Source: a virus. From it: 22,177 nt of DNA. Of the stretch, positions 1,438 through 17,134 are shown in pieces; the stretch's first letter is position 1, and every line of letters begins with the position of its first letter. Location: IMG/VR virus record IMGVR_UViG_3300032240_001509, positions 1 through 22,177 of that record. One strand, 5' to 3'. Under the pieces are notes generated by a model, which had not been told where the DNA came from, did no database searches, and was given only the letters and a program-made list of their open reading frames with translations. The translations under genes and the position numbers were made by a program.

Positions 1438-1552
1438 AGTCAGGTGGCGGAATGGTTAGACGCAAGTATACCGTAGCAACTATTGTCGGATGTGCAGACT
1501 CTAGTAGTCAAAGCATAAGGTTGCATTGCAGGTTCAAATCCTGTCCTGACTG
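1438..1552 (+). tRNA. tRNA-like gene with enlarged middle; possible tRNA-Met(CAT) with an insert
   Basis: The two ends are clearly tRNA. The acceptor AGTCAGG (1438-1444) pairs perfectly with CCTGACT (1545-1551), followed by G. TG and a GCGGAATGGTTAGACGC D arm follow the 5' side. The T arm is GCAGG-TTCAAAT-CCTGT (1528-1544). The 64 nt between the D and T arms are about twice the expected length, and no contiguous 5-bp/7-nt anticodon arm with U33 is present. One solution pairs CAACT (1477-1481) with GGTTG (1519-1523) and leaves a 4-nt variable loop. The loop would then be AT...CATAA, giving anticodon CAT with A37 and A38, interrupted by about 30 nt after U33, with about 12 extra nt beside the D arm. 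A Leu(CAA)-type reading is possible but poorer. Identity is tentative. Confidence 0.55.
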
Positions 1553-2047: not shown

Positions 2048-2377
2048 ATGGCGTGTCATTGTTTACATTTAAAAGATTCACGTGAGTTTTATTCATTATT
2101 GAAACAACGTGACCCTGATATGATCATGAAAATGGTCAAATGTGTATTAAGTGCATATAAACGCAATAAACCTAATATTGATATATTTGATATTACGTTT
2201 AAAAATATGGATGAATTAACATTTAATATTGAAAAATCGCAGTATACTGAATTATTATCCAATTGTTTAGATGATTTAATTACAATGGAAGAATATGAAT
2301 TATGTGCTGATATTAAAAAGATATTAGATAAAAAATCTAAGAAAAAACAAGGGGATGTTCCGGTATTTGATCAGTAA
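2048..2377 (+). CDS. hypothetical protein with UVR-like C-terminal helix pair (109 aa)
   Basis: The ATG at 2048 follows a TATTTAT-rich stretch. The frame is open further upstream, but only through the tRNA-like gene, so this start is preferred. MACHCLHLKDSREFYSLLKQ begins the protein. The C-terminal region LDDLITMEEYELCADIKKIL resembles the UvrB/UvrC (UVR) helical hairpin pattern of acidic helix, turn, then YExxAxIRxxI. That motif usually mediates protein contacts; here it is a resemblance only. The last 27 bases of this gene are also the 5' end of the tmRNA (2351-2377), including its acceptor strand and D-loop region. The coding and structural RNA sequences therefore truly overlap. Confidence 0.65.
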   Translation: MACHCLHLKDSREFYSLLKQRDPDMIMKMVKCVLSAYKRNKPNIDIFDITFKNMDELTFNIEKSQYTELLSNCLDDLITMEEYELCADIKKILDKKSKKKQGDVPVFDQ

Positions 2378-2756
2378 TCTGAAGGTAATACTACACGCAG
2401 AGATAAGTACTGTATCTCTTTAAACTACGTACAAACAATAACTGTAGAATTATCTACTATGACCTTCGCAGATCTTATGGATTTCGTAGGCGCGAACGAG
2501 TACGCTGTAGCGGCTTAATTAGCAACGGGTTCGAACACCTAGGAACAGAATTCGATGAGTACTCACAATCGACTCACTAAATAAGGACTGTGGGTTGTTT
2601 TATTGATAGTCATAAAATCAAGTGGTGGATGTCGCTAAGACCAAAAACCTTGCGACCCTATACCTCATGCACTGGGGTTAATCAGTGAGCTAAGCGTGTG
2701 AGACGTTAGTATTATTGTTCATTATTGAGACACGAGTTCGACTCTCGTCATCTCCA
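2351..2756 (+). ncRNA. ssrA: transfer-messenger RNA (tmRNA), one-piece
   Basis: tmRNA rescues stalled ribosomes by acting as tRNA-Ala and then as an mRNA for a degradation tag. The 5' strand GGGGATG (2351-2357) pairs with CATCTCC (2749-2755) over 7 bp, with G3-U70, the alanine identity pair. The T arm is ACGAG-TTCGACT-CTCGT (2732-2748), and ACA follows the acceptor. The 5' side continues TTCCGGTATTTGATCAG, close to the tmRNA D-region consensus. A long P2 helix joins TCAGTAAT..GAAGG-TAATACTAcACG (2371-2397) with CG-TTAGTATTA..GTTC-ATTATTGA (2704-2729). After P2 is a 7-bp AGAGATA/TATCTCT hairpin (2399-2419), then the tag frame (2489-2518). CACTG/CAGTG with an upstream ACCC facing its GGGT loop looks like a pseudoknot. 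At 406 nt it is slightly long but within tmRNA range. Confidence 0.93.
2489..2518 (+). other. tmRNA tag reading frame (GANEYAVAA*)
   Basis: Codons GGC GCG AAC GAG TAC GCT GTA GCG GCT TAA encode GANEYAVAA and a stop. If the resume codon is GCG at 2492, the tag is ANEYAVAA. The hydrophobic end resembles the YALAA of bacterial tags, and Bacteroidota tags commonly start with Gly. The exact resume codon is inferred. Confidence 0.85.
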
Positions 2757-2765
2757 CAAACCCTT

Positions 2766-2795
2766 AAGGCAATCAGAAATGGTTGCCTTTCTTCT
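2766..2795 (+). terminator. rho-independent terminator after the tmRNA
   Basis: AAGGCAATC (2766-2774) pairs with GGTTGCCTT (2781-2789), 9 bp with one T-G pair, around loop AGAAAT. A pyrimidine-rich TCTTCTT tract follows. It starts 10 bases after the tmRNA 3' end and would close the RNA cluster transcript. Confidence 0.75.
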
Positions 2796-2833: not shown

Positions 2834-3487
2834 ATGCAACAAGAACCAGTTACGTCAGCAATCAGTCTGCGTGAACGAATAGGAAATGCCATAGTACTTG
2901 CACTATGTGGATTAATAGGAATTGCCTTCCTATGTCAAATGTACCTTGTAGGGTATCATTTTTTCAAATCACCTGAGGAAAATCAACAATTAGCTAACGA
3001 AATTAGTTGGAAAATTGACGGAACATTTAAGAACAGCCCAGGTAATATCTGGTATAATGCCGCTGATCACATCTACATTGAAAAAGTTACTAATAAAGTA
3101 GTTGTTGGTAAATTAGCAGGTAATCGTAATTTAGAATTTGGTGTTAAAAACATATTAGAAGAATATGTACAAGAAAAAGGATATGATTTATCCCCAGACG
3201 CTGAAAATAAATTACGTGTTGAAATTGTATATTTAGATGTTTTAACTACAAAGAAAAATGTATCTGTATTCCATAAAGATGAACAAGAAGTTGTAATTCG
3301 TCTTAAAGGTATCTTATATAAAGATGGTATTAAAGAAAAAGAAATTATAGTTGAAGAATCATCATCTGAAATATCAATGTCAACTTTAATTGTTGATGAA
3401 GGTGGTAAATTTAATCAAACATCTTTAAGTAATGCTCTTAAAAAAGGTTGTGATCAATTAGTCACTAAACTATTAGGAGAAAAATAA
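2834..3487 (+). CDS. membrane-anchored YajG/CsgG-like protein
   Basis: A 217-residue protein with a short cytoplasmic N-terminus and one membrane helix at about residues 18-42 (ending CQMYLVGYHFF). A periplasmic alpha/beta domain follows. The domain has the layout of YajG and CsgG-type envelope proteins: a helix (FGVKNILEEYVQEKG), a strand (LRVEIVYLDVLT), further strands (QEVVIRLKGILYKDG), then a C-terminal helix (LSNALKKGCDQLVTKLLGE). The family link is inferred from this order of elements, so it is tentative. It abuts the next gene (TAAATG) and opens a block of exported proteins that continues to 11588. A role in assembling or anchoring the secreted neighbours is possible but unproven. Confidence 0.6.
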   Translation: MQQEPVTSAISLRERIGNAIVLALCGLIGIAFLCQMYLVGYHFFKSPEENQQLANEISWKIDGTFKNSPGNIWYNAADHIYIEKVTNKVVVGKLAGNRNLEFGVKNILEEYVQEKGYDLSPDAENKLRVEIVYLDVLTTKKNVSVFHKDEQEVVIRLKGILYKDGIKEKEIIVEESSSEISMSTLIVDEGGKFNQTSLSNALKKGCDQLVTKLLGEK

Positions 3488-5131
3488 ATGAAAAAATTAT
3501 TAACACTTATTGGGATATTATTAATATCTCTAACGTCACATGCACAGTTAACTGTTAATCAATCTGTAACCCCAACAACTGGATTAAAAGTAGGAGATAC
3601 AATCTCAGTAAAATATACAGTTGCTAGAGGTACAACTTTACCTCGTTATTTTTGGTTAAGATATCAATATAATAACAAGGCTTTAGCTTATGTAAATACA
3701 ACATTTTCACAAGGTACTTCATCTCAAACATTCTATACAGGTTGGAATAACTACAAATTTACATCAAACGCTGATAAATCTGCTACAAGCTTGTATGAAC
3801 AATACCAAGCATCACCTTGGTCTTATACAGTAAATACTGATTGGAATGTTGGACAACTAACAGTTCAAAGAACAGATGCTGCTATTAATGGTGATATTGC
3901 AACCCAAAAATATGTAATTAAAGATTTAGGAACTTATGATAATATCCATAAATTAGACTTATCATATTCAATTAGTGATCTTAGTGCATATATTTCACCA
4001 ATTACTACAACTACAGGGTTACTATCTTTATCAAATGTAACAGGTAATACATCTCAATTTAAAGTTAGAGTATTATTCCCGTCTGGATACACAATTACAG
4101 ATCATACAGTACAATTAATGTCTTTAAAAACAGATGGTAGTGGTTTAATTGATTGGACTAAACAACCACTTCAAGTTAAAGCATTAGATGCAAGTGGTGA
4201 AGCTATATTTACATCTGGTATTAAAGTAGGTGATAGCATAGGAGTGTTTGTAGCACCAGCAATGCAAAAAACTTGGATGAATGATATTATAACTGTATCA
4301 GATGCTTACAAAGCATTTTTAGGTATTTCACAAACTGATATTAGTGGTAATACAACATATTTTACAAGACCTAATTTAGAAAAGAAAATAGGTTTAATTA
4401 CAAAAGATAAAACAACTTTTAGTGAGTCAGATTCATATTATTTATTTGCAAACGTAATGGGTATTGATGTATCTGATAAAGCTTCAATTCCAAAATCAAC
4501 TTCAACATCAGTAAGATACTATAGTGGTTTACTAAATCAAGGATGGTTAGATGGAACACCTAATAATAATGTTAGTGTTAAGGCTTCAAACCAAACAGTT
4601 GATATGGTATTTGCTTGGGGTGGTGACTTAGATTGGTCTCATTCATCTCACCCAGATACAATTGCTAGTAGAGTATCTAGTGGTAATTATGCTAATGCAA
4701 TTAATAATGGTGAGACTATTAGAACAATGTCTTTAAGTACAATGTCTTATTCTCAACCTACTTTAGAAAAAGCTACATTAAGTTTAACTTCAACTTTAGA
4801 AAATGGAAAAGTTATATTAAGTGGTAGTTTAACTAAAGCTGATTTAGCTGGTTTAGAAGTGATTATGAATTATGATGATTCTAAATTAACATTAACTGAT
4901 GTTATATTTGATGCTGGCAATACAGTAACTAACTTCTCTACACATGATAGTGGTAGATTAACATTTGGTTCTATTGATCAGTTAAAAACAGCTAGAATTA
5001 AAGTTGGTACTCCATATAAGTTGGTATTTACAACAAAAACATCACTGACTAATACATCAGGTTTATTCTATACAGTATTAGCAGATGCAGTAGATGCAAA
5101 TGGTAAAAAGATAGAATTAGTAGTAGAATAA
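3488..5131 (+). CDS. secreted protein with degenerate dockerin-like and C-terminal cohesin-like domains
   Basis: A 547-residue protein with a signal peptide of about 20 residues ending SHAQ. The N-terminal half is Thr/Ser/Asn-rich beta sequence. At about residues 265-340 it has a segment shared with the next gene (ITVSDAYKAFLGIS... ESDSYYLFANVMG). The calcium ligands of the dockerin loop are mostly lost here: only the final Asp (D315) aligns. Residues 425-547 look like a cohesin/CBM-type beta sandwich, with GLEVIMNYDDSKLTLTDVIF matching the pattern of yDpsxLxLxxV. The stop codon overlaps the next start (TAATG). It is probably secreted or surface-exposed. The protein appears paralogous to the 5131-7017 product, which suggests a duplication. 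Confidence 0.7.
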   Translation: MKKLLTLIGILLISLTSHAQLTVNQSVTPTTGLKVGDTISVKYTVARGTTLPRYFWLRYQYNNKALAYVNTTFSQGTSSQTFYTGWNNYKFTSNADKSATSLYEQYQASPWSYTVNTDWNVGQLTVQRTDAAINGDIATQKYVIKDLGTYDNIHKLDLSYSISDLSAYISPITTTTGLLSLSNVTGNTSQFKVRVLFPSGYTITDHTVQLMSLKTDGSGLIDWTKQPLQVKALDASGEAIFTSGIKVGDSIGVFVAPAMQKTWMNDIITVSDAYKAFLGISQTDISGNTTYFTRPNLEKKIGLITKDKTTFSESDSYYLFANVMGIDVSDKASIPKSTSTSVRYYSGLLNQGWLDGTPNNNVSVKASNQTVDMVFAWGGDLDWSHSSHPDTIASRVSSGNYANAINNGETIRTMSLSTMSYSQPTLEKATLSLTSTLENGKVILSGSLTKADLAGLEVIMNYDDSKLTLTDVIFDAGNTVTNFSTHDSGRLTFGSIDQLKTARIKVGTPYKLVFTTKTSLTNTSGLFYTVLADAVDANGKKIELVVE

Positions 5132-7017
5132 TGAAAAAATTATTAGTTACACTCTTAATATTAATTAGTTCAGTAGCTTACTCTCAAGTAGGCTATTTGA
5201 ATTATACTGTTTACGATATTAGAAATAACCAAGTTGGTGCCTATGCTAACAATGCTGCTAACTTTGTAACTATGTTTGATGTTACAAAGGGTGCTAGTGT
5301 ATATGCAAGTGGAGTATCAACTGCTCAAAAAACATTATTCTTTGCTAATGGTTGGCAACCATCAGGTGTTCCTAATGGAGGTGCTTTTACTGGTATTAAG
5401 ATAACAGGATATTTCGTTCCAAAAGAAACAGGAACATATACATTTGCTATTGATGGGGATGATGGAGTTGACTTTTTATTAGATGGGAATGTTGTAACTT
5501 CATTCTATGGTGCACATGGTTTTGGAGGATATCGTTATGGTACTGTTAATTTAGTTGCTGGTAAGTCATATGCGTTTATGGCTAGATACCAAAACTGGGG
5601 TGGAGGATGGGGAATGTATTTAGTTTGGAAAAGACCATCTCAATCACAATATAGTGTTCAAGCAGATGAGGTAACTACAATTGTATCAACACCCTCAAAA
5701 CAAGCAATAGCAAATTTTAAAGTCAATACAAATTTAGATGCAACCAAATTCTCAATAGGTACCTCAGCATTAAGCTCAGTAGGTTCTATTGATATTACAA
5801 ATAATTTAGATAGTGTAAAAATAAATAATGGGTATAAAGCTAATATTACTACAGGACAAGTTGAATGGAGTTATGTAAATATATTTAATGATAATACTAC
5901 ACTTTACATTGATTTAAGACAATTTGGAAATATAGTACCCTCAACAATTAATAGTGTTTCAATTTTAGATGTGTATAGCGGACCTGTAACATTTTTGAAT
6001 AGTGATATCTATTGGGCACGATATAGTATTCCATCTACATTATCAAAAGTTACAGATGGTAGTTCTATATATAATTCAAATATACGAAATGCTGGATATA
6101 GTAATTATGCATTCACTTGTAATATAGGGTTTACAGCAAACCAAATATACAAACCACAATCAGTATCAATATCAACAACAAACAATTTAACTACATTATA
6201 TAATAGTATTGTTACAGTATCTGATGTTTATACAGCGTTCCAAGAATATTCTAATCAAGGATTATTTGGTAATCAAAGTGGTAACTCATTTACTTATGGT
6301 ATTCAATATAGTAATGCTGATGTGAATGATGATAACGTGTTTGATGAACAAGATTGTTTCTTATTATTACAGAATCTAACAGGAACTAAAACACTAGTAG
6401 ATACATTTAATTTAAATAAAACATTAAGAGTAATACCCCAATCCACTTATGATATGATTGGTAAATCTAATTGGAATACATTTACAAATCCATTAGGTAG
6501 TTCTTATACATTTGATATTAATACAGGTAAATCTACTGATACATTAAGTTTAGCTATAGCATGGAAAGGGGATGTTAATTTATCTCATTCAACTACCCCA
6601 ACATCAAATAACTACACTACAATGTCAGTAAAATCAATGAGTGTTAGTAATGAAATTAACGCTTCAATTATTACTGAAGTGGGAAATAAAATATATGCTT
6701 ACATCACTTTAGATCCACTACAACAACAAGTAGTAGGAACTCAATTTCAATTGAATTATGATAATACAGTATTAAAATTTGAAGGTGTTGAATTTAAAAC
6801 TAAAGGTAGTCCAATGAATTATGGTACTAATAAAGGTAACTATATAAACTTAGGATCATTGATTAGTGATGGTAGTACTGTATTAAACAATACTACTGAA
6901 TATAAAATAATATTTACATCAACAACCAAACTTGATAATGTATTAGGTTTAATATCAATTGGTGCTACAGATGCTGTTAATAAAACAGGCACACAATTAA
7001 AAGTTAAAGTAAATTAA
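5131..7017 (+). CDS. secreted PA14 / dockerin-like / cohesin-like protein
   Basis: A 628-residue exported protein with a signal peptide ending AYSQ at residue 19. Residues 22-175 form a PA14-type lectin domain: GYFVPKETGTYTFAIDGDDG, LLDGNVV, then LVAGKSYAFMARYQNWGGGW. Residues 397-408, DVNDDNVFDEQD, carry a full dockerin/EF-hand calcium loop (D397, N399, D401, D405, D408), followed by a helix. Residues 508-628 form a cohesin-like sandwich (VVGTQFQLNYDNTVLKFEGV). PA14 domains bind glycans; cohesin-dockerin pairs join extracellular complexes. Having both kinds on one chain allows chain-to-chain or self association, which is inference. Start and stop overlap both neighbours by one base (TAATG), so translation is probably coupled. 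Confidence 0.78.
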   Translation: MKKLLVTLLILISSVAYSQVGYLNYTVYDIRNNQVGAYANNAANFVTMFDVTKGASVYASGVSTAQKTLFFANGWQPSGVPNGGAFTGIKITGYFVPKETGTYTFAIDGDDGVDFLLDGNVVTSFYGAHGFGGYRYGTVNLVAGKSYAFMARYQNWGGGWGMYLVWKRPSQSQYSVQADEVTTIVSTPSKQAIANFKVNTNLDATKFSIGTSALSSVGSIDITNNLDSVKINNGYKANITTGQVEWSYVNIFNDNTTLYIDLRQFGNIVPSTINSVSILDVYSGPVTFLNSDIYWARYSIPSTLSKVTDGSSIYNSNIRNAGYSNYAFTCNIGFTANQIYKPQSVSISTTNNLTTLYNSIVTVSDVYTAFQEYSNQGLFGNQSGNSFTYGIQYSNADVNDDNVFDEQDCFLLLQNLTGTKTLVDTFNLNKTLRVIPQSTYDMIGKSNWNTFTNPLGSSYTFDINTGKSTDTLSLAIAWKGDVNLSHSTTPTSNNYTTMSVKSMSVSNEINASIITEVGNKIYAYITLDPLQQQVVGTQFQLNYDNTVLKFEGVEFKTKGSPMNYGTNKGNYINLGSLISDGSTVLNNTTEYKIIFTSTTKLDNVLGLISIGATDAVNKTGTQLKVKVN

Positions 7018-7355
7018 TGAAAAAATTATTAATAATATTGTTAGTATTAACTTCTTGTACTAAAGTAGAAGTTACACCTACGCCACCTCCTGTTCAAAAC
7101 ATATTTAGTGTTACTGAGTCAACTGTGTCGAATGGTGATGAGATTTATTTTGATTTAAAAACAGATGGAATTTATACTCTAACATTAATCGACGTTGCTC
7201 AAAATCAAGTAATAACAAGAGAACGAATCAATGGTAAAGCAGGACAAAATAAGTTAAAAATATACACTAGTTCACTACCAGTTAAATATTTATACTTAGT
7301 ATTAGAAGATGGGTCTAGAACTCAAATAGCTAAAACAACCATTAAAATTAATTAA
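7017..7355 (+). CDS. small lipoprotein with T9SS-tail-like beta domain
   Basis: A 112-residue protein. The signal peptide MKKLLIILLVLTSC has a lipobox with Cys14, so the product is probably a lipoprotein. A Pro/Thr-rich linker follows. The remaining ~80 residues have the strand order of Bacteroidota type IX secretion sorting domains: GDEIYFDLKTDGIYTLTLID, then VITRERI, then GQNKLKIYTSSLP, and a final KTTIKIN. In real T9SS cargo this domain lies at the end of a large protein; here it stands alone behind a lipobox. It overlaps the upstream stop codon and is followed by a second, similar protein. The resemblance is by eye. Confidence 0.62.
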   Translation: MKKLLIILLVLTSCTKVEVTPTPPPVQNIFSVTESTVSNGDEIYFDLKTDGIYTLTLIDVAQNQVITRERINGKAGQNKLKIYTSSLPVKYLYLVLEDGSRTQIAKTTIKIN

Positions 7356-7356
7356 A

Positions 7357-7737
7357 ATGAACATAATAAAAAAAATATGCTTAATAGCAGCGGTTGCAAT
7401 ACTATTTGTAGTATGTACTAAAGTAGATGTACCTGCTCCAGTCGCTCCTGAAGTTAGCGCTGATTTAAAAATAACTAATACTGTTGGTATTAAATTACAA
7501 TCGTCATTTGTTACTAGTGAAGTAGCAATGAATGTTAAAATTGATGTAGCTCAACCAGTTACTATTAAGATATTTGATATTTCAAATAGAGTGGTATCTA
7601 AAGAAACAGTGAATGTAATTGCTGGTGATAATGTTTTAAAAGTATATACAACAGCATTACCATCATCTGCATATCGAATAGGATTATTTGATGCAAATGG
7701 TAAACAATTAGGAATAACAGATTTTAACAAACTATAA
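7357..7737 (+). CDS. second small lipoprotein with T9SS-tail-like beta domain
   Basis: A 126-residue protein with an N-terminal hydrophobic signal (IAAVAILFVVC) and Cys20 as the probable lipidation site. The following TKVDVPAPVAPE parallels the TKVEVTPTPPP of its upstream neighbour, so the two are tandem paralogs. The C-terminal part matches the type IX sorting-domain pattern more closely: VTIKIFDISNRVVSKETV, then AGDNVLKVYTTALPSSAYRIGLFDANGK. It lacks the usual basic end, finishing DFNKL. One base separates the two genes, so they belong to one operon. Possible roles are surface anchoring or mimicry of host T9SS cargo. Confidence 0.62.
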   Translation: MNIIKKICLIAAVAILFVVCTKVDVPAPVAPEVSADLKITNTVGIKLQSSFVTSEVAMNVKIDVAQPVTIKIFDISNRVVSKETVNVIAGDNVLKVYTTALPSSAYRIGLFDANGKQLGITDFNKL

Positions 7738-7756
7738 ACTTTAAATAACAAATAAA

Positions 7757-8071
7757 ATGGCAGAAGAAAAAGAAGAATCAACAGGCAAATCATTTAAAAA
7801 TATTTTAATTGGTTTAGCTAGTACTATTACATTAGGTATAGGTACTTGGGTTACTACAAAATTAACTGGTGGTGAAAAAGATGAAACTCCAGTACAAACA
7901 GCAGCCCCTGTAATTAACATTCAAAACACTCAAAATCAGTCTCAAGCTGCAGGTGGTAAAACTGTAATTATTAAAGAAAAAACAGTAGAACCAGTTAAAC
8001 CAGCTCAAGCACAACCAGCTAAGCCTAAGAAAGATGGTGATGAATTTAAAGAAAAACCTGCTCAGTGGTAA
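7757..8071 (+). CDS. single-pass membrane protein with Pro/Lys-rich tail
   Basis: A 104-residue protein. After a charged start (MAEEKEESTGKSFK) there is one hydrophobic segment at about residues 14-37 (ending TWVTTKLTGG). The rest is a low-complexity, extended region rich in Gln, Asn, Ala, Pro and Lys (PVKPAQAQPAKPKK). This resembles a TonB- or spanin-like arm that crosses the periplasm, but no family is recognised. It lies between the lipoproteins and another membrane protein, in a block of envelope proteins. An envelope role is therefore likely; the exact function is unknown. Confidence 0.6.
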   Translation: MAEEKEESTGKSFKNILIGLASTITLGIGTWVTTKLTGGEKDETPVQTAAPVINIQNTQNQSQAAGGKTVIIKEKTVEPVKPAQAQPAKPKKDGDEFKEKPAQW

Positions 8072-8090
8072 TTATATAAATAAATAAAGT

Positions 8091-8705
8091 ATGCAAGAAC
8101 AAACTCCTACAGGTTTTAGAGACCTATTAAATAAAATGATGAGCCGTAGATGGTATATTACGGCAATGGTATTAGGTGGGTTTATATTAATTATTGGTGG
8201 TATATTTACTGCTATTAGTTTACAAACACCAATGGCGGCAGCGTGGAAGGAATTATTAATGTTATTATTAGGTGCCTTTATTGGTAGTTATGGTAAAATT
8301 ATTGATTACTGGTTCTCTGATACTGATAAAGATAAGATGTTAGTTCAGAAGATGGATGAGGAAGATGGTGTTAGTTTAGGTAGTGTTAATGACATTAAAG
8401 AAAGCAATAAACCATTCACTCCATTGATTCCAGATGCATTTGTTCAAGGTGCTCAAGCAGCAAGAGAATTAGCAGTAGTTGAAAACAAACAAAATTTTGA
8501 CTTAGCTAAAGACGAACAAGAACATAGACAAATGTTAGAAGTTGATGAGCAAGAGCATGAGCAAGAAATGGAAAAATTAAAATTAGAACATGAAATAAAA
8601 GCACATAGATACTGTCAACATGAGTGGGGTGATTCCGACCATGATGGACATTTAGAGTGTCAAAAGTGTGGATTATTAAAAGAATCTTGGGACGAATCCC
8701 ACTAA
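8091..8705 (+). CDS. two-helix membrane protein with coiled coil and C-terminal zinc-ribbon-like end
   Basis: A 204-residue protein. Two probable membrane helices lie at residues 22-44 and 53-71. A long, highly charged Glu/Lys/His/Gln helix follows at about 120-172 (EQEHRQMLEVDEQEHEQEME), probably a cytoplasmic coiled coil. The end, YCQHEWGDSDHDGHLECQKC, has C175, H177, C190 and C193, consistent with a zinc ribbon. Phage proteins with a CxHxW...CxxC end are common but of unknown role. The two-helix hairpin before a holin-like gene makes a holin or lysis-control role possible. It ends just before the second copy of the 21-nt leader repeat. Confidence 0.62.
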   Translation: MQEQTPTGFRDLLNKMMSRRWYITAMVLGGFILIIGGIFTAISLQTPMAAAWKELLMLLLGAFIGSYGKIIDYWFSDTDKDKMLVQKMDEEDGVSLGSVNDIKESNKPFTPLIPDAFVQGAQAARELAVVENKQNFDLAKDEQEHRQMLEVDEQEHEQEMEKLKLEHEIKAHRYCQHEWGDSDHDGHLECQKCGLLKESWDESH

Positions 8706-8724
8706 CCATTAAAAATTAAAAGTA
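8704..8724 (+). repeat. 21-nt leader repeat, copy 2
   Basis: Identical to 2812-2832. Here the last base of the repeat is the first base of the ATG at 8724, so spacing to the start differs by two bases from copy 1. Confidence 0.7.
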
Positions 8725-8972
8725 TGACATTTAAAGAATGGGTAATTGACCTTTTTAAAGATGAAAGAGGATCAATCTCGGTAAAACCAGTAATAGCATT
8801 TATAGGATCATTGATTTTATTCGGCACCACATTTGCTAATTCATTCTCTCATCAAGACGTAGCTCCATCAGCTGATTTAGTTCACGCTTGTATGATTGTA
8901 GTATTAGCAGGAATGGGTGGTGATACAATTGATAAGTTTTCACACAAGAAAAAAGATGATTCCAAAGCTTAA
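8724..8972 (+). CDS. holin-like membrane protein
   Basis: An 82-residue protein with two hydrophobic segments: VKPVIAFIGSLILFGTTFANSF (about 20-41) and LVHACMIVVLAGMGGDTIDKF (about 52-72). A charged tail, SHKKKDDSKA, follows. The arrangement of N-terminal charged segment, TM1, a short loop with Pro, TM2 ending in a Gly-rich stretch and DKF, and a Lys-rich tail is common among small phage holins. Holins form the inner-membrane holes that trigger lysis. The NlpC/P60 hydrolase is 3.4 kb downstream, so this is not a compact lysis cassette. A strong terminator follows directly. Confidence 0.6.
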   Translation: MTFKEWVIDLFKDERGSISVKPVIAFIGSLILFGTTFANSFSHQDVAPSADLVHACMIVVLAGMGGDTIDKFSHKKKDDSKA

Positions 8973-8983
8973 TTTTAAAACCA

Positions 8984-9009
8984 GGGGAACTCAGGTTCCC
9001 CATTTTTTT
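8984..9009 (+). terminator. strong rho-independent terminator
   Basis: GGGGAAC (8984-8990) pairs with GTTCCCC (8995-9001) around loop TCAG, followed by A and seven T. It separates the holin-like gene from the CsgG-like gene and ends the 2834-8972 run. Confidence 0.92.
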
Positions 9010-9019
9010 AGATTCGTTT

Positions 9020-9742
9020 ATGAAAGCATTATTAATATTATTATCAATGTGCACTTTGTTCTTTTACAAGTGCAATGGTCAAACTATAGGCTCAACAAAA
9101 ACCGAGCAGTTCAAAGCATCCTTCGAAACCAAAACAGACATTAGTCAATATTTAAATTATGAAGGACCAACAATACCAATTCAGATTCTCAAATGCGGTA
9201 TTGGTGATGAAGTTTATGAGCAATATCCTGAACTCAAGGAAAAGAAAGTGGGTTTGGGTGTGGCTAACATCACGTTGGAATATCTTGAAAATCTTAACCG
9301 ATTTACATTTACAGAAGATAAAACTGAAATTAAAAACAGAATGGTTAAACAATTTCAGGCGTCTCAAGCAGGTATTTCTCAAGATAAACTTGATGGACGT
9401 GGTAAAATCCGTTTGGCACACTATTTTGTTGAAATTGAAGTATATGATTGGAGTGTAAGTGAAGATGAAGAAGTAAATTTAAAAGATGGAGTTAAAAATA
9501 CAATGGTAACTCGTTTAGGTTTACAAGTACGTTTTACAGATGCTGAAACAGGAGAAATTATAGCAGCATCAGGTTTAGGTGAAGCTAAAACAACAAGAGA
9601 ATTAACATTATTATCTGACGCAACAATAGACCCTGTTAAATTTAATCAATCAACAGTTAGTATTGCAACTAAAAAAGCATTAGATATTGCTTGTGCTCGT
9701 ATATTACCTCGTATGATTAAAAAGGGTGTATTTAAAAATTAA
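9020..9742 (+). CDS. CsgG-family outer-membrane secretion protein
   Basis: A 240-residue exported protein; the signal sequence ends near CNGQ at residue 21. The body follows the CsgG/HfaB pattern: a strand plus helix (VGLGVANITLEYLENLNRFT, 77-96), FQASQAG (112-118), HYFVEIEVYDWSVS (134-147, equivalent to the gAdylvtGsIt strand), then LGLQVRFTDAETGEI (166-180), which matches the family hallmark of vdxxTGEIl. The helix STVSIATKKALDIACARI closes the domain. CsgG forms a nonameric outer-membrane channel that exports curli subunits. This copy is shorter than E. coli CsgG, and the membrane-spanning strands are not certain. It follows a strong terminator, starts a new transcription unit, and is followed by a lipoprotein and a low-complexity secreted protein. 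Confidence 0.78.
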   Translation: MKALLILLSMCTLFFYKCNGQTIGSTKTEQFKASFETKTDISQYLNYEGPTIPIQILKCGIGDEVYEQYPELKEKKVGLGVANITLEYLENLNRFTFTEDKTEIKNRMVKQFQASQAGISQDKLDGRGKIRLAHYFVEIEVYDWSVSEDEEVNLKDGVKNTMVTRLGLQVRFTDAETGEIIAASGLGEAKTTRELTLLSDATIDPVKFNQSTVSIATKKALDIACARILPRMIKKGVFKN

Positions 9743-9747
9743 TTAAA

Positions 9748-10119
9748 ATGGGAACAGCAGCAAAGAAAAAACGTCCTATGAGAAGTAGGAGATCCGGAGT
9801 AAAGAAGTTAAATTTAGTAAAATCAAATTTATCAATATTGAAAAAGTTAGTAGCGTTATTTGTCTTAGTATTATTATTTAATGCTTGTACACCTGTTAGA
9901 ATTGTAGAAACAACATCTATTGATAGTACAGGTAAACAAATTAAAGTAAAAACTAAATATTATCAACAAACTGATGGATACTCAGTTCAACCTGATATTC
10001 ATATAATTACAACTACTCCTTTATTTTATAATAGAGTTCCAATCATAATTCCAACATATAGAGTTCCTGTTATTAGAGGATACCAACGTAATTCATTTGG
10101 ATTTAGACATAGACATTAA
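9748..10119 (+). CDS. putative lipoprotein with basic N-terminus
   Basis: A 123-residue protein. The first 30 residues are very basic (KKKRPMRSRRSGVKK), then a hydrophobic helix ends in LVLLFNAC, giving a relaxed lipobox with Cys47. The mature part begins TPVRIVETTSIDSTGKQIKV, a short beta-rich segment, and ends in Arg/Tyr/Phe/His-rich sequence (GYQRNSFGFRHRH). The family is not recognised. It lies 6 bases after the CsgG-like gene and 3 bases before the low-complexity gene, so it is probably part of the same export unit. A CsgE- or CsgF-like accessory role is conceivable, but no sequence feature shows it. Confidence 0.6.
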   Translation: MGTAAKKKRPMRSRRSGVKKLNLVKSNLSILKKLVALFVLVLLFNACTPVRIVETTSIDSTGKQIKVKTKYYQQTDGYSVQPDIHIITTTPLFYNRVPIIIPTYRVPVIRGYQRNSFGFRHRH

Positions 10120-10121
10120 TA

Positions 10122-11588
10122 ATGAAAAAATGGATAATAAATTCATTAATAATGGTTATGATTCTATTCGCTACAAAAGCGAATGGACAGGTCTATACTC
10201 AAACATTCATTGATAAATGTTCAGGTCAAGTTAAAATTGCTACCACAACCATGGTAAATGGAAATGCTGTGGTATCATTTTATGGACAAATTAAAACATT
10301 TACTCCATTTCAAGTAGCAAATGGAGAATTACAAGCATGGCTTCAGGCAACTTATGCTTACTATAATACATTAACATGTCCAGTAGCAACACCAGTAGTA
10401 ACTCAAACCGTCCAAAATACAGTATCACAAGCAGCAGCACAAGCCGCTTCATCAGCAGCAAGTTCAGCAGCTTCATCAGCAGCATCCTCAGCAGCATCAA
10501 ATGCAGCAAGTGGGGCAGCAAGTGGGGCAGCTTCTGGAGCCGCTTCAGGCGCCGCTTCAGGCGCAGCCTCAGGAGCAGCAAGTGGAGCAGCATCGAATGG
10601 TGCTTCCACATCTTCGGGTGGATCTGTATCGCAATCATCATCGGGTTCATCATCATCGTCTTCTTCATCTTCATCTTCCTCTTCTGGATCTTCCTCATCA
10701 TCAGGCTCAAGTGGGGAGAGCAAAAGCGGAAGCAGCAGTTCAAACAGCGAATCAAAAACAGAGAGCAAAACAGAATCTAAATCTGAATCTAAGTCTGAAA
10801 GTAAGAGTGAGGAAAAAAAAGAGGAAACTAAATCAGAATCTAAAGAGGAAAAGAAATCTGATGAGAAAAAAGAGGAAAAGAAAGAGGAAAAAAAGGAAGA
10901 AAAGAAAGAGGAGAAGAAGGAAGAGAAAAAACAAGTTAAAATGAATCCTATAATGTTAGGATCTGATTTAACTGTAGGACAAAACGCCACTGGTGGTTTT
11001 ACTCCTGTAATATCACTAAGTATGTCTCAAGCGTCAGTTACAGGTGAATCGAGTTGGGGTGTAAGTAGCATGATATGGGCCGATTTAAAATCGATAGCAA
11101 TATCAGCTAATAAAAGCGAAATGGTATTCAAAAACGGCGCTTTATCCGCCATTAAAGCGTATTCTTACACCGTTGCTAATGTAGCTGGTGTTAATATGAC
11201 TTTTGGTGGTTATACTTGGGTTAAACCACATCCAAAATTGGGTACTTATGGTTATAACTTATCAGTTATTAATATTAAGTTAAAAGAAAGTAATGGGTAT
11301 TCATATTCAATGATGTCTTCAACAACAGCATTTTGGACTAAACCCTATCAAATAAGTAGAAAATCAACTTTATCTCCGGGGGTCTTTCTGATGGCTTCGC
11401 CCTACGCTTACAACAGCAAATCGGGAAGCTCCTGGAACTATAATGTAATGGGTTTGGTGGGCACAGGATATAGTTTTAAATTGAGTAAAAGATTTGGATT
11501 TAACATTGATTATAAGGCTAGTGTATCAACAGTACCGGGTTCACCAATACTAAGTTTCTTTCTAATAGGATCAAGACTTCAACTATAA
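10122..11588 (+). CDS. secreted low-complexity (Ala-Ser-Gly / Ser / Lys-Glu) protein with probable beta-barrel C-terminus
   Basis: A 488-residue exported protein; the signal sequence ends ATKANGQ at 23. Residues 24-88 are a small folded domain with two Cys (C33, C86). Residues 104-158 are an (A)(A)(S/G)-type repeat. Residues 159-200 are nearly pure Ser with Gly. Residues 201-266 move from Ser-Glu-Lys to repeated KKEE. Residues 270-488 are an amphipathic beta domain with aromatic-rich strands (GVNMTFGGYTWV; FGFNIDYKASVS) and a final FFLIGSRLQL, typical of outer-membrane barrels. The repeat zone is locally G/C- and purine-rich, unlike neighbouring genes. It sits directly downstream of the CsgG-like and lipoprotein genes. 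A surface-exposed flexible spacer on a barrel anchor is the simplest reading. Confidence 0.75.
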   Translation: MKKWIINSLIMVMILFATKANGQVYTQTFIDKCSGQVKIATTTMVNGNAVVSFYGQIKTFTPFQVANGELQAWLQATYAYYNTLTCPVATPVVTQTVQNTVSQAAAQAASSAASSAASSAASSAASNAASGAASGAASGAASGAASGAASGAASGAASNGASTSSGGSVSQSSSGSSSSSSSSSSSSSGSSSSSGSSGESKSGSSSSNSESKTESKTESKSESKSESKSEEKKEETKSESKEEKKSDEKKEEKKEEKKEEKKEEKKEEKKQVKMNPIMLGSDLTVGQNATGGFTPVISLSMSQASVTGESSWGVSSMIWADLKSIAISANKSEMVFKNGALSAIKAYSYTVANVAGVNMTFGGYTWVKPHPKLGTYGYNLSVINIKLKESNGYSYSMMSSTTAFWTKPYQISRKSTLSPGVFLMASPYAYNSKSGSSWNYNVMGLVGTGYSFKLSKRFGFNIDYKASVSTVPGSPILSFFLIGSRLQL

Positions 11589-11610
11589 GGTTGGTTCGGT
11601 CAAAACCAGA

Positions 11611-11625
11611 TTGTATATTTACAAT
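11611..11625 (+). promoter_or_regulatory. TATATTTA promoter box inside an inverted repeat
   Basis: TTGTATATTTACAA occurs here and again at 20089-20102. The TATATTTA box (11614-11621) lies inside the inverted repeat TTGTA/TACAA. It precedes the small lipoprotein gene at 11653. Confidence 0.55.
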
Positions 11626-11652
11626 AATTAATTAATAAAAAAACAAACAAAG

Positions 11653-11820
11653 ATGAAAAAAGTATTTGCAATCGTAGCAATGGCTACATTAGCAGCTTGT
11701 GGCGGTAGCGCTTCAACAGAAGTTAAAACTGATTCAACAGCAGTAACAACAGATTCAGCAACAATTTGCGCAGATTCAACAGCAGCAGCTATAGCAGCTG
11801 ATACTGCAGCTAAAAAGTAA
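11653..11820 (+). CDS. tiny Ala/Thr/Asp-rich lipoprotein (55 aa)
   Basis: The ATG at 11653 follows an A-rich leader. The product begins MKKVFAIVAMATLAACGGSA, a textbook lipoprotein signal with LAAC and Cys16. The 39-residue mature part has repeating DST/DSA units (TDSTAVTTDSATICADSTAA) and ends ADTAAKK. Such short Asp/Thr/Ala-rich lipoproteins are common in Bacteroidota genomes and have no known function. The gene has its own promoter-like box upstream and a hairpin directly downstream, so it forms a monocistronic unit and may be highly expressed. Confidence 0.75.
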   Translation: MKKVFAIVAMATLAACGGSASTEVKTDSTAVTTDSATICADSTAAAIAADTAAKK

Positions 11821-11826
11821 GAATAA

Positions 11827-11855
11827 TTGGCCCACCATATATTTGGTTGGGCCAA
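11827..11855 (+). terminator. terminator-like hairpin
   Basis: TTGGCCCA (11827-11834) pairs with TGGGCCAA (11848-11855), 8 bp, with a 13-nt loop and a short ATTT tail. It follows the tiny lipoprotein stop codon by 6 bases. The T tract is weak. Confidence 0.65.
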
Positions 11856-11865
11856 ATTTCTGCTT

Positions 11866-11873
11866 TACATTTA
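11866..11873 (+). promoter_or_regulatory. TACATTTA promoter box
   Basis: TACATTTA lies 10 bases after the hairpin and a few bases before the ATG at 11878. It has the same order of hairpin then TAnnTTTA seen at 17372, 18620 and 21474. The very short leader would give a nearly leaderless mRNA. Confidence 0.5.
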
Positions 11874-11877
11874 TGTT

Positions 11878-12396
11878 ATGTACAAAATAAAACGATTCTT
11901 TAAACGATTTTATAATTTATATCGTTGGTTACCTATTATCTGGAAAGATCAAGATTGGGATCATAGTTATATATTTGAAATACTTAAATTCAAATTAAAG
12001 AATCAAGCAGGATATATTGGACATCATGATCGTCACTTATCAGCTAAACGTGATGCTGAGATAATGATGTTATGTGTTAGATTAATGGATAAGGTTCAAA
12101 ATGGGTATTATGATCATGAGTGGAGCAAATATTATAAATCAGAATCTATATTTACACCAAGTGAGGAATATCCAGGCAGTTATAATTGGGATGAAAAAGA
12201 AATATCTGAGAAATTTGATAATTATTTTATAAAATATCCACGCATTTACATTGCTGTTGATAATATGAACAAACCTCCATTCCACAAAGATACTAAATTA
12301 GGAATGGCTATTAATATAGGATTTATAAATCACATACGAGCTAAAAAATTATTATTTAAAATACTAGAAGAAAATATTGAAAGATGGTGGGATTAA
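11878..12396 (+). CDS. hypothetical phage protein (172 aa)
   Basis: The ATG at 11878 gives MYKIKRFFKRFYNLYRWLPI. The frame extends upstream with a TTG, but that would run through the terminator hairpin, so the ATG is preferred. The start is basic and aromatic. The middle part (GHHDRHLSAKRDAEIMMLCVRLMDKVQNGYY) is helical with many His and Asp residues. The pattern of basic aromatic start, WKDQDWDHSYIFEILKFKL and KRDAEIM is typical of an unnamed phage family. No catalytic motif is certain and no membrane segment is clear. The end overlaps the NlpC/P60 gene by 13 bases, so it is probably co-expressed with it. Confidence 0.65.
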   Translation: MYKIKRFFKRFYNLYRWLPIIWKDQDWDHSYIFEILKFKLKNQAGYIGHHDRHLSAKRDAEIMMLCVRLMDKVQNGYYDHEWSKYYKSESIFTPSEEYPGSYNWDEKEISEKFDNYFIKYPRIYIAVDNMNKPPFHKDTKLGMAINIGFINHIRAKKLLFKILEENIERWWD

Positions 12397-12863
12397 AAAA
12401 TATATTAATTACAGGAGTTTTAACATTAATGAGCATCGCTGCATTAAGTCAAAAACCAGCAGAAAATGGATTTAATGATGTAATAACATCAGATTCAACT
12501 CTAAATAACTTTATGACTCATTGGATGAGAAAACCATATAAGTTGGGAGGTAGTACTGAGCGTGGGATTGATTGTTCACAATTTACAAAGCGTTTATATC
12601 GTGATGTTTATCTTAAACAATTAGGAAACGTAGCATCAGACCAATGGGACCAAACTGAGCGAATTAAAAAAGATAGCTTACAAGTTGGTGATTTAGTATT
12701 TTTTAGAAGTAAACAATCACCTAGTGGGTGGCATTGTGGGGCTTATATAGGTAATACATATTTTATTCATGCTTCAAATAGAATTGAAGGTGTTAAAGTA
12801 AGTAGCTTAAATGAACCTCGTTATAAAAAATCATATAAAGGAGCTGGTAGGCTCAAAAATTAA
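12384..12863 (+). CDS. exported NlpC/P60 peptidoglycan hydrolase
   Basis: A 159-residue protein with an N-terminal signal sequence of about 23 residues (ending AALSQ). The NlpC/P60 cysteine-peptidase core follows: GIDCSQFTKRLY with catalytic Cys64, GDLVFFRSK, SGWHCGAYIG with His117, and FIHASN with His129 as the third polar residue. Such enzymes cut the gamma-D-Glu to diamino-acid bond or similar stem-peptide bonds. In a phage this is a likely endolysin exported by the host Sec system, or an enzyme that remodels the host wall during infection. It overlaps the gene before it and is followed by two small membrane proteins, which supports a lysis role. Confidence 0.85.
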   Translation: MVGLKNILITGVLTLMSIAALSQKPAENGFNDVITSDSTLNNFMTHWMRKPYKLGGSTERGIDCSQFTKRLYRDVYLKQLGNVASDQWDQTERIKKDSLQVGDLVFFRSKQSPSGWHCGAYIGNTYFIHASNRIEGVKVSSLNEPRYKKSYKGAGRLKN

Positions 12864-12869
12864 TAAACA

Positions 12870-13043
12870 ATGGAATTACTAATTGGAATTGGGGGTAGTA
12901 TTATATTAGCAGCTATAGTAGCTACATCTTGGGTACGTGGAATTGATTACATGAAAGAAAACCACCCCGATTATAAAGGTGAAGATTTTCTAAATTGGAA
13001 AAATGATCCTGAAAACGAAAACGACAAACATCAAATATTATGA
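12870..13043 (+). CDS. small single-pass membrane protein (57 aa)
   Basis: The ATG at 12870 follows the hydrolase stop codon by 6 bases. The product starts MELLIGIGGSIILAAIVATS, a clear membrane helix, then WVRGIDYMKENHPDYKGEDF and an acidic tail rich in Asn and Glu. The stop overlaps the next gene's start (ATGA at 13040). Its size, position after the NlpC/P60 hydrolase and N-terminal helix fit a lysis accessory such as a small holin or antiholin. No family is recognised. Confidence 0.7.
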   Translation: MELLIGIGGSIILAAIVATSWVRGIDYMKENHPDYKGEDFLNWKNDPENENDKHQIL

Positions 13044-13300
13044 AAAAATACATTAATCCGATTTTAAGTTTAGGTACAGCAGCAGCATTATTAGGTGTTA
13101 TTTACTTTCAAAATGAAAGAATTAATAAATCAAGTGCTGAGATAAAAATGTTACAATTAACAGTGGATAGTTTACGCGATGAGGACTTCATTAATAAATC
13201 GGAGTTAGGTCGTTATGAATTAACTTTAGATCATTTACAAGAAGTTAATCCTGATGCCGCTGTTGAGTTTGTAAATTATATGAACCACGAGACAGAGTAA
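13040..13300 (+). CDS. putative inner-membrane spanin-like protein
   Basis: An 86-residue protein. Residues 5-24 are a membrane anchor (PILSLGTAAALLGVIYFQ). The rest is a charged, heptad-like helix (NERINKSSAEIKMLQLTVDSLRDEDF in two parts) ending with acidic residues. An N-terminal anchor plus periplasmic coiled coil is the architecture of i-spanins, which help disrupt the outer membrane at lysis. No o-spanin lipoprotein is adjacent; the nearest small lipoprotein is at 11653-11820. Start overlaps the previous stop codon (ATGA). The role is inferred from topology and neighbours only. Confidence 0.6.
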   Translation: MKKYINPILSLGTAAALLGVIYFQNERINKSSAEIKMLQLTVDSLRDEDFINKSELGRYELTLDHLQEVNPDAAVEFVNYMNHETE

Positions 13301-13320
13301 ATTAATACTTTCTTAAATTA

Positions 13321-13336
13321 TAGATATTTATATCTA
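13321..13336 (+). promoter_or_regulatory. TATTTA box in an inverted repeat at a start codon
   Basis: TAGATA-TTTA-TATCTA is an inverted repeat that ends on the A of the ATG at 13336. It contains ATATTTATAT. It could be a promoter box, or an operator that masks the start codon as RNA. Confidence 0.45.
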
Positions 13337-13575
13337 TGATACGTACAGTTAACATCAAGGGGAAAGAATATTGTGTTGTGAATACTACATTTACAGCATA
13401 TGGTATTGAAGCGTATACTCAAATTAATATTGATGTAAGTAAATTAAATGCAGGAGATAAATTAATTATTGAACGCAATGCTAATTTATTATTTAATCGC
13501 CCTTTAAAAATATCAGTAAAACCAAAAACACAACCTGAAGTAAAAGAATCAAAGCCTTGGTATAAATTTTGGTAA
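13336..13575 (+). CDS. small beta-rich protein with aromatic-basic C-terminus (79 aa)
   Basis: A 79-residue protein. Residues 1-60 look like a compact beta fold (IKGKEYCVVNTTFTAYGIEA; LNAGDKLIIERN). The end is KESKPWYKFW, a short linker plus an aromatic-basic tail. A similar tail closes the product at 18667 (KKRWWQFWKAGL). No signal peptide or membrane helix is visible. It may bind a nucleic acid or the membrane through the tail, but this is speculation. The start codon lies within an inverted repeat. Confidence 0.6.
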   Translation: MIRTVNIKGKEYCVVNTTFTAYGIEAYTQINIDVSKLNAGDKLIIERNANLLFNRPLKISVKPKTQPEVKESKPWYKFW

Positions 13576-16492: not shown

Positions 16493-17134
16493 ATGAAAAA
16501 AGTTTTATTATTAATTACTATCCTAGCATTCTTTGCTTTAGGTGGTAAAGCACAAGATGTAGTTACATTAACTCATAAAGCGTATACAACACATTACAGC
16601 AAGTCAAAACATTACCCAGTAATGGTTGAATGGTGGATTACTAAAGCCGGATTAACTTGTACTGATAAAGTTAAACGTGGTGATAAATTCATTCCAGACC
16701 CATTATTACCTAATGAAACTGACTTACAATCAGATTATACAGGTGCTGGGTTTGATCGTGGTCATAACATGCCTGCAGCGGATGCTGTTTGTGATCAAGT
16801 AGCAAATGAGGAATCATTTTATTTTAGTAACATGACTGCTCAATACCCTTCACTTAATCGTGGTGATTGGAAAGCATTAGAAACATTAGCTCGCAACACA
16901 GCATTAGAACAAGACTCAGTTAAAGTATGGTGTGGGTCCGTTGGTGTTGAGAAGAAAATAGGTACAACGTCAGTACCGACTCAATGTTGGAAGGTAATTT
17001 ATATTGTTAAAACAAAAGAATATATGGCTTTCGTGTTTGATAATAACACTACTAAAGCAGATGGTATTGATAATAATAAAGTACAACTAGCTGATGTTGA
17101 AAAACTAACTGGATTTAAGTTTAAGGCAAAGTAA
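16493..17134 (+). CDS. exported DNA/RNA non-specific endonuclease (DRGH family)
   Basis: A 213-residue protein with a signal peptide ending GGKAQ at residue 21. The beta-beta-alpha metal nuclease motif is FDRGHNMPAAD, with D88, R89, G90 and general-base H91. FSNMTAQYPSLNRGDW supplies Asn122, the expected Mg ligand, and a conserved Trp. This is the Serratia nuclease/EndoG (NUC1) family, which cuts DNA and RNA without sequence preference. Export is striking for a phage enzyme: it would act in the periplasm or outside, away from the phage's own genome. Possible uses are digestion of incoming rival DNA, of extracellular DNA, or of nucleic acid released at lysis. It stands alone with a promoter-like box on each side. 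Confidence 0.88.
   Translation: MKKVLLLITILAFFALGGKAQDVVTLTHKAYTTHYSKSKHYPVMVEWWITKAGLTCTDKVKRGDKFIPDPLLPNETDLQSDYTGAGFDRGHNMPAADAVCDQVANEESFYFSNMTAQYPSLNRGDWKALETLARNTALEQDSVKVWCGSVGVEKKIGTTSVPTQCWKVIYIVKTKEYMAFVFDNNTTKADGIDNNKVQLADVEKLTGFKFKAK

Follow-up and report, generated by a model that had tools for sequence, protein, structure and literature searches.

The window analysed here, a 22,177-bp virus fragment, carries tRNAs, one tmRNA and, at 2834-11820, twelve co-directional and nearly gapless genes, which we named A to L (Table 1). All twelve products have a signal peptide, a lipobox or a transmembrane (TM) helix, compared with 6 of the 29 genes in the rest of the window (Fisher P = 2.4e-6; envelope calls made with a hydropathy/lipobox script, not SignalP). 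A preliminary description of this DNA had singled out the same interval as rich in exported, lipidated and membrane products, which agrees with these counts; as a general term, "envelope" holds for all twelve, but "exported" does not suit F, G and H, which resemble inner-membrane proteins. The strong intrinsic terminator between H and I, together with a further terminator downstream of the tmRNA, suggests two transcripts, A-H and I-K. The frequency of the Bacteroidota promoter motif TTTG-N-TAnnTTTG was not above chance. The tmRNA gene, complete and in one piece, has its own terminator and lies immediately upstream of the cassette. Further upstream, a third tRNA-like match was found with Rfam (34.8 bits) and missed by ARAGORN; its 115 bases are unusually long for a tRNA.

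Table 1. Features of the window discussed in the text, with the strand where it was recorded.
Feature	Position	Strand	Description
tRNA-like match	1438-1552		115 bases
tmRNA gene	2351-2757		One-piece; tag ANEYAVAA
Terminator	2766-2789		Downstream of tmRNA
A	2834-3487	+	217 aa; N-terminal TM anchor and periplasmic YajG/CsgG-like domain
B	3488-5131	+	547 aa; signal peptide; C-terminal half with dockerin-like and cohesin-like regions
B, cohesin-like	~4769-5128
C	5131-7017	+	628 aa; signal peptide
C, PA14	~5317-5667
C, dockerin-like motif	~6313-6387
C, cohesin-like tail	~6628-7014
D	7017-7355	+	112 aa lipoprotein (LTSC); free-standing T9SS-CTD-like domain; end KTTIKIN
E	7357-7737	+	126 aa lipoprotein (FVVC); paralogue of D; T9SS-CTD-like
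F	7757-8071	+	104 aa; one TM; tail rich in Pro and Lys, its end conserved as KK(E/D)GDEFKE..P.W (alignment)
G	8091-8705	+	204 aa; two TM; near-invariant LLGAFIGSYGKIIDYWFSDTDKDKM core; C-terminal CxH..CxxC zinc-ribbon-like end (alignment)
H	8724-8972	+	82 aa; small inner-membrane protein of holin-like size
Terminator	8984-9001	+	Strong, intrinsic; 7-bp stem, T-run; between H and I
I	9020-9742	+	240 aa; SPase-I-type signal peptide; CsgG-fold, periplasmic; anchor gene of the cassette
J	9748-10119	+	Lipoprotein (LFNAC, lipobox read from sequence); start codon uncertain; minority of loci
K	10122-11588	+	488 aa; signal peptide; ~75-aa two-Cys head; Ala/Ser/Lys-Glu-rich linker; C-terminal barrel
L	11653-11820	+	55 aa lipoprotein (LAAC) rich in Thr, Ser and Ala; short lipoproteins like it recur close to the cassette
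NlpC/P60 protein	12384-12863		Signal peptide; right after the block
DNA/RNA non-specific endonuclease	16493-17134		Signal peptide; PF01223 (1.1e-40)

The PA14 domain of C is matched in Pfam at 4.6e-13, and B aligns with the C family over 271 columns (hhalign, 99.9%, 1.2e-36), indicating that the dockerin-cohesin tail is common to both proteins. Among 32 relatives of C, Pfam detects Cohesin in 16, Lectin_C in 15, PA14 in 8, Dockerin in 2 and LCCL in 1, and the PDB profile matches of the family comprise dockerin, cohesin and C-type lectin. The N-terminal head swaps among these relatives (PA14, C-type lectin or LCCL) while the tail stays conserved, and nearly all B/C-type proteins have a signal peptide. 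The initial reading of B and C as dockerin/cohesin-like proteins is thus supported by the family matches and by their mutual homology, and the PA14 and C-type lectin modules would fit the polysaccharide binding proposed alongside it. A PDB sequence-profile search with I, A, B and E gave no meaningful match. A diversity-generating retroelement acting on the C-type lectins was rejected, as no reverse transcriptase was found in 50 records.

A full type IX secretion system (T9SS) sorting domain (CTD; PF18962) occurs above the Pfam cut-off in 34 of 50 related phage records, mostly once per record, and 33 of the 34 matches of at least 27 bits are encoded on the strand of I, 0.5-1.9 kb upstream of it. 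Sorting domains above the cut-off are also present in gp15 of Flavobacterium phage immuto and in one MAG relative. These fused CTDs comprise the full domain, with the PNP strand and the GxYxxxL motif. Where the surface protein has no CTD, it is followed by small lipoproteins, either one (lipo30) or two (D and E). Across the 74 loci with enough upstream sequence, the CTD is fused in 34 (29 by script and 5 more by Pfam), D/E are found in 23 and lipo30 in 15; two loci are unassigned, and no locus has more than one solution. In a tree of I, modestly supported and with the fused loci gathered largely in a single clade, the three states changed at least 12 times, and at least 3 changes are needed between fused and free. 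Such repeated exchange implies one shared role, and one shared partner, for the fused and the free form. The same surface protein also shows a second kind of splitting: the 642-aa single protein of locus L163 corresponds to two proteins in immuto, gp14 (the N-terminal part) and gp15 (cohesin and CTD), at 11598-13422 of locus L081.

The window belongs to the type with D and E: PF18962 gave no match to B-E at E <= 0.1, and B and C are without a recognisable CTD. Compared with the type A CTD (PF18962/TIGR04183), present as a full fused domain in 34 of the 74 loci, D and E are separate, lipidated and divergent, and their homology to it is argued through a chain that runs from the CTD via lipo30 to D and E. 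For three members of lipo30, the identity as lipidated CTDs is unmistakable (1e-11 to 1e-12); the lipo30 profile matches the CTD profile at 5.1e-7 over 78 of 80 columns; D matches the lipo30 family at 5.5e-13 and its paralogue E at 9.4e-20 (hhalign). Compared directly with the CTD profile, D and E give moderate scores (1.7e-4 and 2.7e-4; probability 41-49%), whereas two unrelated cassette families score 6.6e-3 and 0.62. E also matches TIGR04183 Por_Secre_tail at 0.011 (15.7 bits, below the cut-off of 23), and relatives of E show weak PF18962 matches. The two T9SS-tail-like lipoproteins noticed at the outset are recovered through this chain, and the tie between T9SS sorting domains and the cassette backs the location at the cell surface that had been envisaged.

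We tentatively propose, as a possibility that is still more doubtful than not, that D/E or lipo30 could serve as a T9SS signal in trans, docking on a CTD-less surface protein and carrying or anchoring it at the cell surface; we know of no precedent for trans transport by a lipoprotein CTD, and of no bacterium with a split T9SS substrate. The T9SS of flavobacteria exports surface adhesins, and D and E, as free-standing lipidated CTDs without cargo, might instead be decoys that jam the host system so that surface receptors are left unexported, with B and C as separate cargo. However, 34 loci have the CTD as part of the surface protein that the cassette itself encodes, and no locus combines a fused with a free form. 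This fits cargo sorting better than sabotage, and we hold decoys to be highly improbable.

The AlphaFold (AF2) model of I (pLDDT 77) retrieved CsgG as all of its top 21 Foldseek matches, the best at 4.5e-7, and superposes on CsgG with a Z score of 12.4 (VIA; rmsd 4.5, 166 aligned). PF03783, the Pfam CsgG family, does not directly match I of the window; it matches a cellular homologue on an Ignavibacteriales contig, 37-39% identical to I and with an A-like gene as its neighbour, at 28.6 bits (cut-off 20.8). The alignment of I shows SPase-I-type signal peptides (AxA|Q) and no conserved lipobox cysteine, at odds with the lipidation of CsgG. By inspection, the model has three long strands and lacks the fourth partner needed for two TM hairpins, and the hairpin region contains a conserved acidic SEDEE-like stretch. 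The missing lipobox, acidic hairpin and absent fourth strand suggest that I is probably a soluble periplasmic CsgG-fold protein, not a pore. The original assignment of I to the CsgG family therefore stands for the fold and, transitively, for homology, but not for the lipid anchor, as the signal peptide is of SPase-I type. Pfam matches to CsgF or CsgA/B were absent among the A-L proteins, a search in which HMMs can miss divergent forms.

A had been described as a YajG/CsgG-like membrane protein. The likeness consists of a weak match to Pfam Lipoprotein_16 (7.9e-5, below the cut-off) and a local hhalign match to I (1.2e-4); the membrane anchor is a property of A in the window, whereas many relatives have a plain signal peptide instead (alignment). 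An Ignavibacteriales contig (L164, 9977-16016) encodes, one after another, a CsgG-family lipoprotein, an A-like protein, a transglutaminase-like/TPR protein and a large membrane protein, and the A/I pair may descend from this cellular row.

For K, AlphaFold predicts a 12-strand outer-membrane barrel at residues 277-487, with a helix and a long disordered linker ahead of it (mean pLDDT 63.5 overall, mostly 73-88 in the barrel), a model that matches the barrel-anchored low-complexity protein first noted. The top Foldseek match is FapF (1.3e-6), and VIA places NalP first (Z 23.7), followed by KdgM (20.5) and FapF (20.2), with the EspP barrel matching as well. An identification of K as FapF was rejected, since NalP ranks higher by VIA and several barrels tie, and only a 12-strand barrel is claimed. 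With FapF and the autotransporters K shares the signal peptide, N-terminal domain, disordered linker, helix and barrel. The helix-preceded 12-strand C-terminal barrel of FapF is seen in K, but equally in NalP-type autotransporters, and no Fap-like gene (amyloid subunits, FapD) was noticed in the block; the fold class is shared, and family membership is unproven. Outer-membrane barrels are encoded by other phages as well. Some relatives have a second, short K-type barrel (~264-273 aa) without head and linker beside the long one (L163, 13513-14334; L099, 11211-12020; L088, 3741-4535).

A relative of I is encoded at 473 places in IMG/VR (first scan, tblastn-confirmed), and a second scan with a distant I homologue of immuto as the query added one more clade. 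Counted within ~10 kb of I in 87 non-redundant loci, many of which end at contig ends so that the frequencies are lower bounds, A is present in 73, F in 76, G in 46, H in 26, the D/E family in 29 and the J family in 12; the K-type barrel families are found in 51 and 32. B/C-type surface proteins and a K-type barrel are present in nearly all of them. Gene order is kept among the cassette loci, while most other flanking genes vary. The cassette genes thus co-occur in kept order across many phages, as the preliminary description had asked to be checked. A large virus family, which we assign to aquatic Flavobacterium-like bacteria, carries the block as a conserved set of some ten genes for envelope proteins, and the cassette is found on one Flavobacterium MAG contig and one Bacteroidetes MAG contig.

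Among annotated phages, a DNA-level search for near relatives of the window returned tRNA matches only, and tblastn with C, A, G and B gave no matches. With I, K2 and the fused C2 as queries, tblastn retrieved immuto alone, the only cultured cassette phage found (160 kb; host Flavobacterium sp. LMO8). Its cassette, gp13-gp19 at 10-16 kb, adjoins replication and nucleotide genes (1-10 kb), and its capsid and tail genes lie far away at 97-149 kb. This separation bears on whether the cassette proteins could be virion parts, i.e. fibres or decorations, a finding that would have spoken against the initial proposal. Phage fibres commonly contain lectin and Ig-like folds; however, signal peptides on nearly all B/C-type proteins, T9SS CTDs and the distance in immuto all argue against a place in the particle, and we hold such a role to be extremely improbable.

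Lysis is a further function to be weighed. G and H are small multi-TM proteins, an endolysin-like family (PG_binding_1 and GH19) lies near the cassette in 39 of the 87 loci, which suits a part in lysis for some cassette members, and a gated-pore lysis role has been proposed for the CsgG of phage Melnitz (PMC9004378). In such a lysis and release module, G and H would be holins and a nearby endolysin or the NlpC/P60 protein of the window would cut the wall, with the outer membrane opened by K, I and the lipoproteins. In related loci, a PG_binding_1 and GH19 endolysin is often present instead of the NlpC/P60 protein. We consider a lysis module unlikely, since roughly half of the loci or more lack G (present in 46/87) and H (26/87) whereas the B/C-type proteins are near-universal, although these counts and that of the endolysin are lower bounds, as loci can be truncated and other lysins may substitute. 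Moreover, T9SS-tagged lectin/cohesin proteins have no obvious place in such a module, I lacks the pore hairpins, and the annotated lysozyme of immuto is ~130 kb from the cassette.

We favour, with a probability of about one half, the reading that T4-like phages infecting Flavobacteriia and relatives carry the block as a conserved cassette for display on the host surface, which would place glycan-binding proteins on the infected cell in a T9SS-dependent manner. This reading draws on the envelope-only composition of the block, the conserved synteny, the CTDs tied to the cassette and the swapping lectin/PA14 heads, as well as on immuto, which infects Flavobacterium and has its cassette remote from the virion genes. 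B and C would be made during infection; their export by Sec is shown by the signal peptides in both sequences. They would then cross the outer membrane via the host T9SS, with the CTD fused in cis in many relatives; in the window type, the CTD-like D and E encoded just downstream may supply the signal in trans. The result would be a glycan-binding layer on the infected cell, with PA14/C-type lectin heads on dockerin-cohesin stems. A, I, K, F, G and H, judged by their conserved linkage, may be accessory envelope parts, perhaps a scaffold or conduit. The benefit, which is the weakest step, would most likely be to keep a second phage from adsorbing, by masking surface glycans or cross-linking them, and superinfection exclusion by the displayed proteins is plausible.

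The displayed proteins could also favour adhesion: lectin/cohesin proteins on infected cells might clump them with uninfected kin or particles and so make new hosts easier to find ('sibling capture'). For the curli genes of pelagiphages, this idea is already in print (PMC7029224). Repeated dockerin-cohesin tails that bear C-type lectin and PA14 heads would suit it; however, all its structural predictions are identical to those of superinfection exclusion, the Melnitz authors observed no clumping (PMC9004378), and adhesion seems to us rather improbable, if less so than lysis.

Parts of the display cassette have been met before. Cryophage carries T9SS cargo proteins with type A sorting domains, one of them with PA14, for which hijacking of the host system was proposed and which were termed 'a unique occurrence' (Bellas et al. 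2020, PMC7468147). Sorting domains and PA14 are common to both, but in Cryophage they belong to variable genes of one phage, whereas the cassette described here is a conserved one that recurs across many phages and adds CsgG-fold proteins, a barrel and free lipidated CTDs. The csgGF curli genes of pelagimyophages (PMC7029224) and methylophage Melnitz (PMC9004378) likewise place a CsgG-family protein in an envelope gene cluster, and Melnitz, like the window, has a tmRNA gene. Their CsgG has barrel features by the authors' models and is accompanied by CsgF (PMC7029224, PMC9004378), in contrast to I, which has neither a lipid anchor nor pore hairpins, is found without a CsgF match and belongs to phages of Bacteroidota hosts. 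The earlier notion of an undescribed system must accordingly be narrowed: T9SS cargo and CsgG/CsgF are known from phages, while for the combined cassette or a lipidated free CTD we found no report in the literature searched, which left most subscription journals outside.

If the display reading is true, displaying host-secreted glycan-binding proteins would be a standard infection step in many aquatic Bacteroidota phages and would point to a widespread way for phages to remodel the host surface. The cassette unites two isolated reports, phage T9SS cargo and phage CsgG, and with Flavobacterium phage immuto, which can be cultured, it becomes possible to test why phages carry CsgG genes. A CTD that is both free and lipidated would be a natural experiment on the signal requirements of the T9SS.

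The secreted DNA/RNA non-specific endonuclease downstream in the window has relatives in 30 of the 50 related records, 17 of them within 9 kb of I compared with 6.8 expected. It was rejected as a cassette member because this tendency toward I is not constant. As a periplasmic nuclease, it could destroy superinfecting DNA or salvage nucleotides.
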